Of a stretch of 44,758 nucleotides of DNA, positions 26,760 to 32,809 are shown in pieces (position 1 is the first letter of the stretch; every line of letters starts with the position of its first letter). The DNA lies in the NCBI GenBank assembly GCA_018062505.1, contig JAGOSA010000004.1, positions 1 to 44,758 of the forward strand. Direction: 5' to 3'. The translations under genes were made by a program, and so were the position numbers. Under the pieces are notes generated by a model. The model worked only from the letters and a program-made list of their open reading frames with translations. It did no database searches and had not been told where the DNA came from. Origin of the DNA: Minisyncoccota bacterium (GTDB taxonomy: Bacteria; Patescibacteriota; Minisyncoccia; Phycocordibacterales; UBA9973).

Positions 26760-27263
26760 TTACCAGTAGTAGGCGTATGGATAGCCTCCATTTCCATAGT
26801 ATGTGCCTGTAAAGACGTAGTTTCCGTAGCTGCCGCTCATGCCACCATTGCCGTTGTAGCCAGAATAGCCTGAGTTATAGCCACTATTGTAGCCGCTATT
26901 GTATCCACTGTAGCCAGAATTGTACCCTGTGCTTCCGCCATAGTAACCGCTGTAACCGCCAGTATTTGAATAACCGTAGTTATATTGGTTGTAGCCAGCA
27001 GTTGTTGGGTAGTAGTAGCTGCTTGTAGTTGGATAATAGTACGAGCTAGATGTGTAGCAAGTACAGTTGTACGTGCTGTAAGAGTATGTTGGACGTGGAT
27101 TGTAGCAGCCTGTATAACATGGCGACTGGTACGAAGAGTAGCAGTAGCTTCCGCAAGTTTGGCTAGCTTGAGCGTTGGCAGATGGGGCTGTCGCAAAAGA
27201 AAATGCGAAAACTGCCGCAAGACCCACAGCAATCGTAAGGATTTTTTTGATCATAAGTCTCAT
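26760..27263 (-). CDS. Secreted Tyr/Gly-repeat protein
   Basis: About 167 residues from ATG 27261-27263 (MRLMIKK); ATG 27252-27254 (MIKK) is the alternative, and a TTG further upstream is less likely. Signal peptide ends SANA-QA. The mature N-terminus is Cys/Tyr-rich (CGSYCYSSYQSPCYTGC, CTC), followed by poly-Tyr blocks (SSYYYPTT twice) and then tandem GYNS/GYSG units (about residues 105-140). Such Tyr/Gly repeats recall silk, cuticle or holdfast-like proteins and could be cross-linked or amyloid-like. No recognised domain. Confidence 0.75.
   Translation of the reverse strand: MRLMIKKILTIAVGLAAVFAFSFATAPSANAQASQTCGSYCYSSYQSPCYTGCYNPRPTYSYSTYNCTCYTSSSYYYPTTSSYYYPTTAGYNQYNYGYSNTGGYSGYYGGSTGYNSGYSGYNSGYNSGYNSGYSGYNGNGGMSGSYGNYVFTGTYYGNGGYPYAYYW
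26850..26990 (-). repeat. Coding tandem repeats (Gly-Tyr-Asn-Ser units)
   Basis: Imperfect 9- and 12-base repeats coding for SGYN and SGYSGYN units in the secreted protein at 26760-27263. They are prone to slippage and so may vary in length between strains. Confidence 0.75.
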
Positions 27264-27314
27264 TTTGATAGGAATAAATTGTAAGGGCAAGGGCTATACC
27301 GACCATGTATGCTC

Positions 27315-29781: not shown

Positions 29782-29809
29782 AAAAATCCCCGAATACACG
29801 GGGATTTTT
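29782..29809. terminator. Bidirectional terminator between rny and the ureohydrolase gene
   Basis: Stem AAAAATCCCC/GGGGATTTTT, T-rich on both strands. Confidence 0.88.
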
Positions 29810-29833: not shown

Positions 29834-30910
29834 TCACTCTTTAAGAATTCCTTGCGACACCATCATGCAATAGTACATGTGATAAAAAAGTTCAGCTGCG
29901 CTATTGCGATCATTCTGCGTAGTCGGCACCATTTCATTGAGATCAAAACCAATTATTCTTTTATCCATTGATACAAGAGTGGTAATGAGCTTTTTCGCTT
30001 GCCACATCGAGAGCCCACCTGCAACTGGTGTTCCAGTACTCGGGCAGAGTGACACTTCAAGACCGTCATGATCAAAACTAATGTAAACATCGTCAGTAGG
30101 AATTGAATCAACTATGTCAAAACACCATCTTGCCCAATTCTTGTCTTGGAGATCCATCTGATTGCGCATGACTGAATCGTAAAAAACAGAGATACGATCT
30201 TTGTTTTCTTTAACGTACTGACGCTCGTCTGCCCCAGTGCTTCTGATTCCAACTGAAGTAAGATGCTTTACTTGCGGAATTTCTGTAAGAATATTGCGCA
30301 TTATGCTCGCATGCGACCACTTAACACCTTCATATGCAAGACGAAGATCAAGATGTGCATCAACTGTCAGAATGCTGAATTTCTTATGGAATTTCGAATG
30401 TGCTTTCACTGAACCAAATATTGAACCGTGACAGCCACCAATGACAGCAACTAAACGATTGAGCTTGAGGGACTCTGTAACATTGCGCTCCAAGATAAAG
30501 TTTACCTTTTCGCAGATTTCATCGAGCAGCCTTACATTATATTCAACTACATGATCTAGGTTCGAATTAATCATCTCATCGAAAATCTCTCTTCCTTTTT
30601 TGTGAAGATCATGCAATTCAGGATCTGATTCATTTGCCCACATGCCTGGGATCCAAGCATCATCTCGATACTGTTCGCTCGTAAGCTCAATTGATTTTGA
30701 TCCTTTAGCTAAACCAGCAGGCCCATCTTCTGCGCCTGTAGTACCCGAAACTGTTATCGCTGTCGGCATCTCATGTACATGGAGAATTGCATTCTCAAAT
30801 GTGTGAGGCAAACCATACAAGTTATTCCCTAACGCTTGTCCATTGAGATCAAAGGCGGCAAACGTTTCTCTATTTTCTAAATAGAGTTTCTGGAGTCTTT
30901 CGTTTTTCAT
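29834..30910 (-). CDS. Ureohydrolase (arginase/agmatinase family)
   Basis: 358 residues, a little longer than usual. Metal-site motifs appear in order: GGCHGS (about 157; usual GGDHS, with the first Asp changed to Cys), DAHLDLR (about 183; usual DAHxDxR), SFDHDGLE (about 277; usual SxDxDxxDP) and DLNEMVP (about 320; usual DxxExxP). So most ligands of the two-manganese site remain. Family members split urea or a formimino group from arginine, agmatine, guanidino acids or similar compounds. Substrate cannot be told from the sequence. It lies after a deoxyhypusine-synthase-like gene, which suggests agmatine or polyamine chemistry. Confidence 0.85.
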   Translation of the reverse strand: MKNERLQKLYLENRETFAAFDLNGQALGNNLYGLPHTFENAILHVHEMPTAITVSGTTGAEDGPAGLAKGSKSIELTSEQYRDDAWIPGMWANESDPELHDLHKKGREIFDEMINSNLDHVVEYNVRLLDEICEKVNFILERNVTESLKLNRLVAVIGGCHGSIFGSVKAHSKFHKKFSILTVDAHLDLRLAYEGVKWSHASIMRNILTEIPQVKHLTSVGIRSTGADERQYVKENKDRISVFYDSVMRNQMDLQDKNWARWCFDIVDSIPTDDVYISFDHDGLEVSLCPSTGTPVAGGLSMWQAKKLITTLVSMDKRIIGFDLNEMVPTTQNDRNSAAELFYHMYYCMMVSQGILKE

Positions 30911-30972
30911 ATATTATTTTTTTAATTTGGTTTTCCGCTATACTCGCATATATAGTTGGTCAGGTCAAATAA

Positions 30973-31002
30973 AAAAACCTCCGAATACTTTCGGAGGTTT
31001 TT
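30973..31002 (-). terminator. Terminator of the deoxyhypusine-synthase-like gene
   Basis: 13-bp stem AAAAACCTCCGAA/TTCGGAGGTTTTT; its T-run leads directly into TTGACC, a possible -35 of the ureohydrolase gene. Confidence 0.9.
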
Positions 31003-31023: not shown

Positions 31024-32136
31024 TTATTTTCTGAGAACGACTGCTGCAATGAGAGGAGCGATGTTTGTATAGTCGCCGAAAATCTGCATACCAAAGGCAT
31101 TGGTCGTAAACTTACCCCAAGTAATTTTTTCTTTGTAGCCAGCACCAGAATAGGAACCAAAACTCATTGGCGAGGAGTGGATTTCAATAAATCCAGCCCA
31201 CGAACGAATTAACTCTTCCTGCTGTTCATTTGTAAAATTAGCAAGAAAGTCTTTCTTCAGATGCGGAACAACGCAAATAGGAAAATCTGCCGCAATACCT
31301 CCTCCATACTGAAGAAATGCAAGGCCTTTTTCTTTGGTATTGTCCATATACCATTCGGCAAGTACATTCAAGTATTTGAACGAATGAAGCACAACATTGG
31401 GATTAATTGGATTTTCTTCTGCATGTTTTGACAGAAATGGGTGATTGCCTTTATAGCTGTAGAAAGCAAAAATATTTCCCATTGTTGAATCTTCAATGCC
31501 TCCAACGACTATGTGCACTTTGTTTTTGTAGGCTTCCAACAGCCAGCAATCTTCCGGATTTGCTGTCGGATCAAACGTTAGGACATTATCTTCAAATAGT
31601 TTGAAGAAATATTCATGCCACAGCAGATAATTACCAGTTCTTTCTGCTTCTCTCCAATATTTTTCAAGATGAGGCAGAACCAGCCGAACCGATTCATCTT
31701 CAGGAAGAAATGTGTCAGTAATTCTTCGAAGGCCGGCATTGTCGAGCTCTTTTTCTTCTTCGCGCGAAAGTTCCATATAGTCAGGAATGTACGCGTAGTG
31801 CGAATTGGCAATTAGTCTGTAAAGACTTTCCTCGAGGTTTGCACCTGTCACAGATATTGCTGCAACTTTTCCTGATCTAATCAGTTCAGAAATATGTGTA
31901 CCTTGCTGGAATGACGAGCCAGCGCCAGACATTGTCAGGAATATTTTTCCTCCATTGTCGCAATGGTCTCGAAGCCAAAGCGCCGAATCAACTGTCTTGC
32001 CTCCATTGCAGTGACGCATATGTTGGACGAGATAGTTTGTAACTGGTGTTGATGAATCTGGAGCGTAGTCTCTTTCTCCGATTTTAATTTTGCTCTGCAG
32101 TCCAGGGCTGAGTAATTTCAGTTTTTCTTGTAGCAT
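31024..32136 (-). CDS. Deoxyhypusine-synthase-like enzyme
   Basis: 370 residues from ATG 32134-32136 (MLQEKLKLLSPG); earlier in-frame ATGs lie inside the promoter. It matches the deoxyhypusine synthase fold end to end: TMSGAGSSFQ and SVTGANLEESLYRL (NAD-binding region), HIVVGGIEDSTMG, and ITWGKF near the end with Lys342 in the position of the active-site Lys of the human enzyme. The family transfers an aminobutyl group from spermidine; in eukaryotes and archaea to eIF5A, in some bacteria to small amines (homospermidine synthase arose from it). Bacteria lack eIF5A, so a small-molecule polyamine role is likely. Confidence 0.88.
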   Translation of the reverse strand: MLQEKLKLLSPGLQSKIKIGERDYAPDSSTPVTNYLVQHMRHCNGGKTVDSALWLRDHCDNGGKIFLTMSGAGSSFQQGTHISELIRSGKVAAISVTGANLEESLYRLIANSHYAYIPDYMELSREEEKELDNAGLRRITDTFLPEDESVRLVLPHLEKYWREAERTGNYLLWHEYFFKLFEDNVLTFDPTANPEDCWLLEAYKNKVHIVVGGIEDSTMGNIFAFYSYKGNHPFLSKHAEENPINPNVVLHSFKYLNVLAEWYMDNTKEKGLAFLQYGGGIAADFPICVVPHLKKDFLANFTNEQQEELIRSWAGFIEIHSSPMSFGSYSGAGYKEKITWGKFTTNAFGMQIFGDYTNIAPLIAAVVLRK

Positions 32137-32195
32137 GGTTGCGTTTTTTGAGGTTTTTTGGAAAGGACTTCGTTGTCCGTTTGCGACCATATTCG

Positions 32196-32220
32196 CATAA
32201 TTAGCTAGCATAGTCAAAAA
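32196..32220 (-). promoter_or_regulatory. Promoter of the deoxyhypusine-synthase-like gene
   Basis: Minus strand: -35 TTGACT (32215-32220) directly after the T-run of the preceding terminator; the -10 is weak, near GAATAT (17-base spacing, 32192-32197). Confidence 0.5.
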
Positions 32221-32224
32221 AAAC

Positions 32225-32249
32225 AAATCCCGACAAAGCCGGGATTTTT
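32225..32249 (-). terminator. Terminator fused to the next promoter
   Basis: Stem AAATCCCG/CGGGATTT and a T-run that ends in the -35 TTGACT of the deoxyhypusine-synthase-like gene. Confidence 0.85.
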
Positions 32250-32272: not shown

Positions 32273-32809
32273 TTACATTATCCGATGTGTTGAAGGATGA
32301 CCAAATATAATATCAAGTCGTGCTTGAATGCTTCCGACACCAAACTCATCGTTGAGTGATGTTGAAGACCACCAAACAGGATTTTTACTATCGCTCGTAT
32401 CGAGGAAGCGAACATGAGAAATGTTACTGTCAGCAATAATCGGATGCTGAGGCTTAACTGGATGATTCCAGTCAAAGTACTCTTTGCAAACTGATTCGTC
32501 GGTAATCATAATTCTGATTTTTTTCTTTGTTCGAGCTCTGTCAGCAAAAGCTTCACTTAAGAATTCAGGTACTTTTCCTCCGTCGTCAGCACCAAGAATA
32601 ATTGTTATCGGAACCCTTCTTTTCATAAATATTTTGAAGGCACCCAAATACTCACCATGGAAAATTGGGTCATTCCAATTTTTGACCAGCATAACTAATC
32701 GATGCTTTGCGCCATATACTGTTTCTTCAAACGTAAGGCGACAATCTCCATTTACTTTAATGACACCTTTTGGCTGATGTGCGACCTGCACTTTTACGAT
32801 TGGTTCCAT
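32273..32809 (-). CDS. Hypothetical protein, PLD-like fold suspected
   Basis: 178 residues from ATG 32807-32809. No signal peptide. An alternation of strands and helices (RLVMLVKNW, YLGAFKIFMKRRVPITIILGA, KIRIMITDES, HPIIADSNISHVRFLD, VWWSSTSLND) recalls half of a phospholipase-D-like domain, but the catalytic HxK motif is absent. So it could be a non-catalytic relative or an unrelated alpha/beta protein. It lies upstream of the deoxyhypusine-synthase-like gene on the same strand, each with its own terminator. Low certainty of fold. Confidence 0.55.
   Translation of the reverse strand: MEPIVKVQVAHQPKGVIKVNGDCRLTFEETVYGAKHRLVMLVKNWNDPIFHGEYLGAFKIFMKRRVPITIILGADDGGKVPEFLSEAFADRARTKKKIRIMITDESVCKEYFDWNHPVKPQHPIIADSNISHVRFLDTSDSKNPVWWSSTSLNDEFGVGSIQARLDIIFGHPSTHRIM

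Follow-up and report, generated by a model that had tools for sequence, protein, structure and literature searches.

A candidate homospermidine module of a SpeY-like synthase and an agmatinase-like ureohydrolase in a Minisyncoccota genome

A deoxyhypusine synthase (DHS)-like gene and the adjoining ureohydrolase gene of a Minisyncoccota bacterium (products P0001 and P0002) probably constitute a two-enzyme module for making homospermidine from agmatine via putrescine. Both lie on the 44,758-nucleotide stretch analysed here (the window), which is the whole of contig C6 from a 671 kb, 79.5% complete assembly (genome G000) (Table 1). In the proposed route, P0002 would hydrolyse agmatine to putrescine and urea, whilst P0001, as a NAD-dependent enzyme of SpeY type, would dehydrogenate putrescine, tether the resulting four-carbon unit to Lys342 as an imine and pass it to a second putrescine, with reduction then giving sym-homospermidine. 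The agmatine would either be taken up or be the product of a SpeD-derived pyruvoyl decarboxylase encoded on contig C40. The initial annotation had proposed a small polyamine route in which agmatine becomes a putrescine-like amine and an aminobutyl group is then transferred, which fits the sequences, although such a route is not surprising, being of the known SpeB plus SpeY kind. Indeed, this pathway type is already described, both as SpeB with SpeY and as a SpeD-derived arginine decarboxylase (ADC) with SpeB and SpeY; the sequences extend it by a CPR clade in which both enzymes have diverged, scoring below the curated cut-offs and swapping partners. Among open-access papers, we found none on homospermidine synthesis in the Nomurabacteria-type group beyond the SpeD study (PMC10407285).

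Table 1. Features of the window and of related loci referred to in the text.
Feature	Position	Strand	Description
DHS-like gene (P0001)	31024..32136	-	370 aa; SpeY-like homospermidine synthase candidate (Pfam, fold, alignment)
P0001 motifs	protein positions		Lys342 in ITWGK; GGGIAADFP at 278-286; EDSTMGNI at 215-222
Ureohydrolase gene (P0002)	29834..30910	-	358 aa; arginase/agmatinase family, 'long' clade
Upstream gene (P0003)	32273..32809	-	No family match
Intrinsic-terminator-like hairpin	30973..31002	-	Between DHS-like and ureohydrolase genes
Intrinsic-terminator-like hairpin	29782..29809	-	3' of ureohydrolase gene
Intrinsic-terminator-like hairpin	32225..32247	-	3' of P0003; sets P0003 apart from DHS-like gene
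Element ATGCGAATATGG	32187..32198	-	5' of DHS-like gene; also present at ureohydrolase gene; may be a -10 region (post hoc)
Element ATGCGAGTATAG	30938..30949	-	5' of ureohydrolase gene
DapDC/ornithine-lysine-decarboxylase-like gene	L112:5117-6796	+	
DapDC/ornithine-lysine-decarboxylase-like gene	L110:2158-3720	+	
DapDC/ornithine-lysine-decarboxylase-like gene	L115:1861-3573	-	
CPR spermidine cluster (G060)	L184:1552-9199		ADC, CASDH-like, nspC-like decarboxylase, terminal long ureohydrolase
CPR spermidine cluster (G062)	L185:1386-10898		ADC, CASDH-like, nspC-like decarboxylase, terminal long ureohydrolase

The reading of P0001 as a DHS-like enzyme with an active-site lysine was borne out. P0001 matched the Pfam DS family (PF01916; E 1.2e-25, 90.8 bits, cut-off 27), and the best solved-structure matches of its AlphaFold model (pLDDT 88.5, 35-row alignment) were deoxyhypusine synthases (Z 24-24.5 over ~300 residues; Foldseek 1e-11). 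Its catalytic Lys342 aligned with Lys329 of human DHS and was invariant across 35 homologues, and Glu336, Trp340, Asp216 and Glu103 were also kept. P0001 therefore resembles the eukaryotic and archaeal enzymes in fold (Z about 24), catalytic Lys and pocket Glu and Trp, with Asp216 and Asp355 at the positions of human Asp238 and Asp342. It differs from them in being bacterial and in four residues: human His288 and Asn292 are replaced by Asp284 and Cys288 (mapped by motif), and human Asp243 and Asp316 by Asn221 and Tyr329 (mapped by HMMER alignment). In DHS, His288 is described as invariant and as the residue that donates and accepts the proton (PMC7226451), whereas P0001 and all 35 aligned homologues carry Asp there. 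Because P0001 has neither this His nor the Asp and Asn that bind spermidine, it seems unlikely to modify a protein by spermidine-dependent DHS chemistry, and canonical DHS chemistry is not expected of it. A deoxyhypusine-like modification of a bacterial protein, for instance EF-P, finished by the ureohydrolase, would draw on the same two families as a model proposed for Haloferax, in which DHS puts agmatine on aIF5A and an agmatinase-like enzyme completes the modification (PMC5178350). We nonetheless consider it highly improbable, given the Asp at the His288 position, the identity of the partner genes as polyamine enzymes, and neighbourhoods in which no eIF5A or aIF5A gene was noticed; with His288 and Asn292 both replaced, a protein-modifying DHS was set aside as the main reading.

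In a phylogenetic analysis of 70 homologues, one main group was a 'long' clade of 21 members (100% SH-aLRT) that includes P0001, and the other consisted of CPR short SpeY and Bacteroidota proteins. Subclade A of the long clade, on a long stem, comprises P0001, its counterparts from G002, G005, G015, G038 and G056, and public MAGs; subclade B comprises mostly Peregrinibacteria and Doudnabacteria, one Nomurabacteria, and G011. A GGGIxxDFPICVVP motif and an EDST(M/L/F)GN-like motif are common to the long clade, CPR short SpeY and Bacteroidota proteins. On this basis, P0001 is a member of a CPR-rich long clade of putative SpeY-like homospermidine synthases. P0001 was compared with SpeY indirectly, through the NF001980 model (homospermidine biosynthesis protein) and the CPR and Bacteroidota proteins. 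P0001 reached 48.3 bits against NF001980, where the curated cut-off is 450, and is therefore named SpeY-like rather than assigned to that equivalog; the model itself is evidently narrow, because the CPR short SpeY types also miss the cut-off (104 to 125 bits), including one (L039) that adjoins ADC and SpeB. Compared with the SpeY of Anabaena and of SpeDA-SpeB-SpeY clusters (PMC10407285, PMC9992855), P0001 is alike in DHS fold, catalytic Lys, co-encoded agmatinase, a genome in which no spermidine synthase was found and a possible SpeD-derived decarboxylase, but differs in belonging to the ~370 aa long clade with its N-terminal extension (~40% identity to Bacteroidota/CPR short SpeY) and in gene order, the DHS-like gene preceding the ureohydrolase gene and each having its own terminator. 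Separately, a different DHS homologue (GGGVPKNF) was observed in G093 (L017, 1357-2607), a same-order genome also carrying a pyruvoyl arginine decarboxylase.

P0002 matched PF00491 (E 4e-40), in agreement with the arginase-family assignment made initially, although the description of 'most metal ligands' undercounted them: all six (H161, D184, H186, D188, D280 and D282) are present and, like the catalytic His200 and Glu326, invariant across 11 homologues. The best of the ureohydrolase models was the agmatinase TIGR01230, at 120.5 bits (cut-off 174.3, not reached), and P0002 is therefore named agmatinase-like. Arginases carry an SGNxHG loop; the D188-H200 loop of P0002 is without it and has agmatinase/guanidinobutyrase spacing, which, together with the family scores (75 bits for the arginase model), disfavours an arginase. 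A guanidine hydrolase was also considered for this long protein, but the 'probable agmatinase 2' chains 7esr/7oi1, which we take to be of the Sll1077-like guanidine hydrolase type, were matched far more weakly (2.7e-5) than agmatinases (6.9e-16). Like SpeB, P0002 has the metal ligands, the catalytic His and the agmatinase-type loop, and its clade replaces SpeB in the clusters of relatives; it differs in being about 50 aa longer and in belonging to a separate 10-member 'long' ureohydrolase clade (99% SH-aLRT). Counting against the homospermidine module are the distance of both proteins from their equivalog cut-offs and the state of P0002, which has the longest branch in its clade (1.42) and unusual residues (GGCHG, SFDHDGLEV).

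The pairing of the two families is not accidental. Across 119 related genomes, PF01916 occurred in 36 and PF00491 in 38, with both in 31 and only five and seven singletons, respectively (Fisher p = 9e-17, a value made too small by ignoring kinship), and in 19 of the 31 co-occurring genomes the two were at most 3 kb apart (counted from tables). For the long DHS-like type, the ureohydrolase was a direct neighbour in G002, G005 and G015, such that adjacency is conserved in sister genomes. The pair of G002 and G015 has the same setting as P0001/P0002, between the gene for an HU-like protein and the RNase Y/ClpP genes, whilst the G005 contig holds only the HU side of it. The ureohydrolase gene lies upstream in G002 and G015 and downstream beside P0001, and the same locus in the same-genus genome G001 is without both genes; this order swap and clean absence suggest that the pair was gained and lost as a unit.

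Partner genes of the long DHS-like type provide further clues to its substrate. Within subclade B, its neighbours include a canonical agmatinase (L113, L116), accompanied in L113 by an arginine decarboxylase, and agmatine deiminase with N-carbamoylputrescine amidase (AguA and AguB; L112, L114, L117). AguA/AguB yield free putrescine, which therefore argues for a putrescine-using synthase in subclade B, although this clue comes from the sister subclade and not from subclade A. Genes related to DapDC and ornithine-lysine decarboxylases, encoding 520-570 aa, adjoin the long DHS-like gene in Peregrinibacteria. In G038 and G056 (subclade A), the long enzyme is the only DHS-family protein, and an ordinary ADC and agmatinase are encoded elsewhere; the long type thus appears to fill the SpeY slot, and in this sample it never shares a genome with short SpeY. 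Free putrescine as the synthase substrate is the simplest common denominator of these partners, and homospermidine, which SpeY makes from putrescine (PMC10407285, PMC9992855), is hence the product that fits best.

The settings of the long ureohydrolase can be read in two ways. In G023 and G054 it takes the agmatinase place of an ADC-SpeY-ureohydrolase cluster; G060 and G062 have it as the last gene of an operon that also encodes carboxy(nor)spermidine dehydrogenase and decarboxylase (CASDH/CASDC), in clusters that also carry ADC and aspartokinase- and aspartate-semialdehyde dehydrogenase-like genes. The latter two clusters were recorded as a seemingly complete spermidine set via carboxyspermidine or carboxyaminopropylagmatine. 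All four settings fit conversion of agmatine to putrescine, and equally a late ureohydrolase acting on an N-substituted agmatine, such as the substrates known from caldomycin (PMC10981699) and aminopropylagmatine (PMC11999265) pathways. In G020, SpeY adjoins a long ureohydrolase (L187:3414-5466(-)), whilst an ordinary ADC and agmatinase occupy another contig (L186), so that agmatine hydrolysis appears to be duplicated; this second agmatinase leans slightly towards the late reading. Our confidence in the homospermidine module goes no higher than probable because these settings accommodate the late route too, with G020 inclining that way.

Such a late route is proven for Thermus thermophilus, where the DHS homologue CdmS works with the ureohydrolase TtSpeBap (PMC10981699). 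Transposed to the present pair, P0001 would join two agmatines to give 1,9-bis(guanidino)-5-azanonane and P0002 would strip both guanidino groups, leaving homospermidine, the end product we infer for the pair on either route. Besides the proven chemistry and G020, this reading draws on the position of the long ureohydrolase, in those neighbourhoods that were seen, beside condensing enzymes (SpeY-like or CASDH/CASDC) and on the ability of CASDH-type enzymes to use agmatine (PMC11999265). The synthase itself argues otherwise and makes the reading improbable, since the CdmS family model gave P0001 its lowest score of all NCBIfam matches (39.8 bits). CdmS, which takes agmatine only, is reported to resemble human DHS at the substrate site except for Phe204 and Leu286 (PMC10981699), whereas P0001 has Asn221 and Tyr329 at the human Asp243 and Asp316 positions; with Asp284 and Cys288, these make up the set seen in the Bacteroidota/CPR SpeY that adjoin an ordinary agmatinase, and the AguA/AguB partners in subclade B produce free putrescine. 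Co-evolution of the long DHS-like enzyme and long ureohydrolase of the P0001 subclade itself towards a late-guanidine route, with condensation of agmatine or some other guanidino amine first and deprotection by the ureohydrolase afterwards, is unlikely. Were it true, a caldomycin-type pathway would have arisen independently a second time, in ultra-small bacteria, and might end in a different polyamine.

For the homospermidine module, a source of agmatine also has to be considered. The initial annotation had suggested looking for an arginine decarboxylase elsewhere, and searches of G000 returned no classical type, neither PLP-dependent (PF02784, PF01276) nor PvlArgDC (PF01862), which counts against the module in this 79.5%-complete genome; what they did return was an orphan SpeD homologue on contig C40 (L071:7824-8300(+)) in which the Ser, His and Cys needed for self-processing are present. 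No spermidine synthase SpeE (PF01564) was found in the assembly. In other organisms, SpeD homologues without SpeE have been shown to act as arginine or ornithine decarboxylases, and SpeB-SpeY homospermidine clusters with a SpeD-derived arginine decarboxylase are known (PMC10407285). SpeD of the same clade directly precedes SpeY and a canonical agmatinase in G066. None of the searched decarboxylase families was found in G002, G005 or G015, so agmatine uptake or missing contigs have to be allowed for. Conceivably, P0002 could instead act as an arginase, with ornithine decarboxylated to putrescine by the C40 SpeD and P0001 again making homospermidine. That protein is the only candidate amine-forming decarboxylase of the genome, ornithine decarboxylases derived from SpeD are known in CPR (PMC10407285), and in G008, with no ureohydrolase present, SpeY is directly preceded by the same SpeD type. 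However, the agmatinase-leaning scores and loop of P0002 and the G066 arrangement speak against this route, as does the central region of the SpeD protein, in which no conserved Gln, one of the diagnostics of SpeD-derived ornithine decarboxylases, was seen (position approximate), and we regard the route as quite unlikely. More broadly, orphan SpeD-family proteins of CPR genomes without spermidine synthase (L071:7824-8300(+), L190:2391-2879(+) and L043) share the motif DPGGWSGFxVIxESHIxxHTFPKRxFVSADxYTC and are probably arginine or ornithine decarboxylases.

The retention of a dedicated polyamine module by a CPR bacterium without most biosynthesis suggests that the benefit of homospermidine, or of a close analogue, outweighs its cost. 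The varied partners around one synthase (ADC, SpeD-type enzyme, agmatinase, long ureohydrolase and AguA/AguB) offer a clean natural test of its substrate. There is also a gain for annotation, as bacterial genes of this kind are easily mislabelled 'deoxyhypusine synthase'.

The layout of the locus agreed in part with what had been described. Each enzyme gene was said to have its own terminator, and terminator-like hairpins do stand 3' of both, and of P0003 as well, with six such sites observed against 2.4 expected. The likeness of the two promoters is weakly supported: one 12-mer-like element, ATGCGARTATRG, is common to both starts, but its pattern was derived post hoc and promoter-like sites showed no excess over shuffled sequence. 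The upstream gene P0003, noted initially as a third, unknown gene, does not belong to the module. Its product had no match in Pfam, NCBIfam or PHROGs and gave an uninformative structure prediction (pLDDT 37), and its only relative among 60 genomes, which marks it as lineage-specific, was in G001, a genome without the pair, whilst G002 has the pair without P0003. Elsewhere in the window, 26760-27290(-) encodes a protein that may be exported, Cys-rich at its start and ending in a tail of Tyr/Gly/Ser repeats, and a protein with a similar start is encoded at the same place in G002 (L037:4303-4764).
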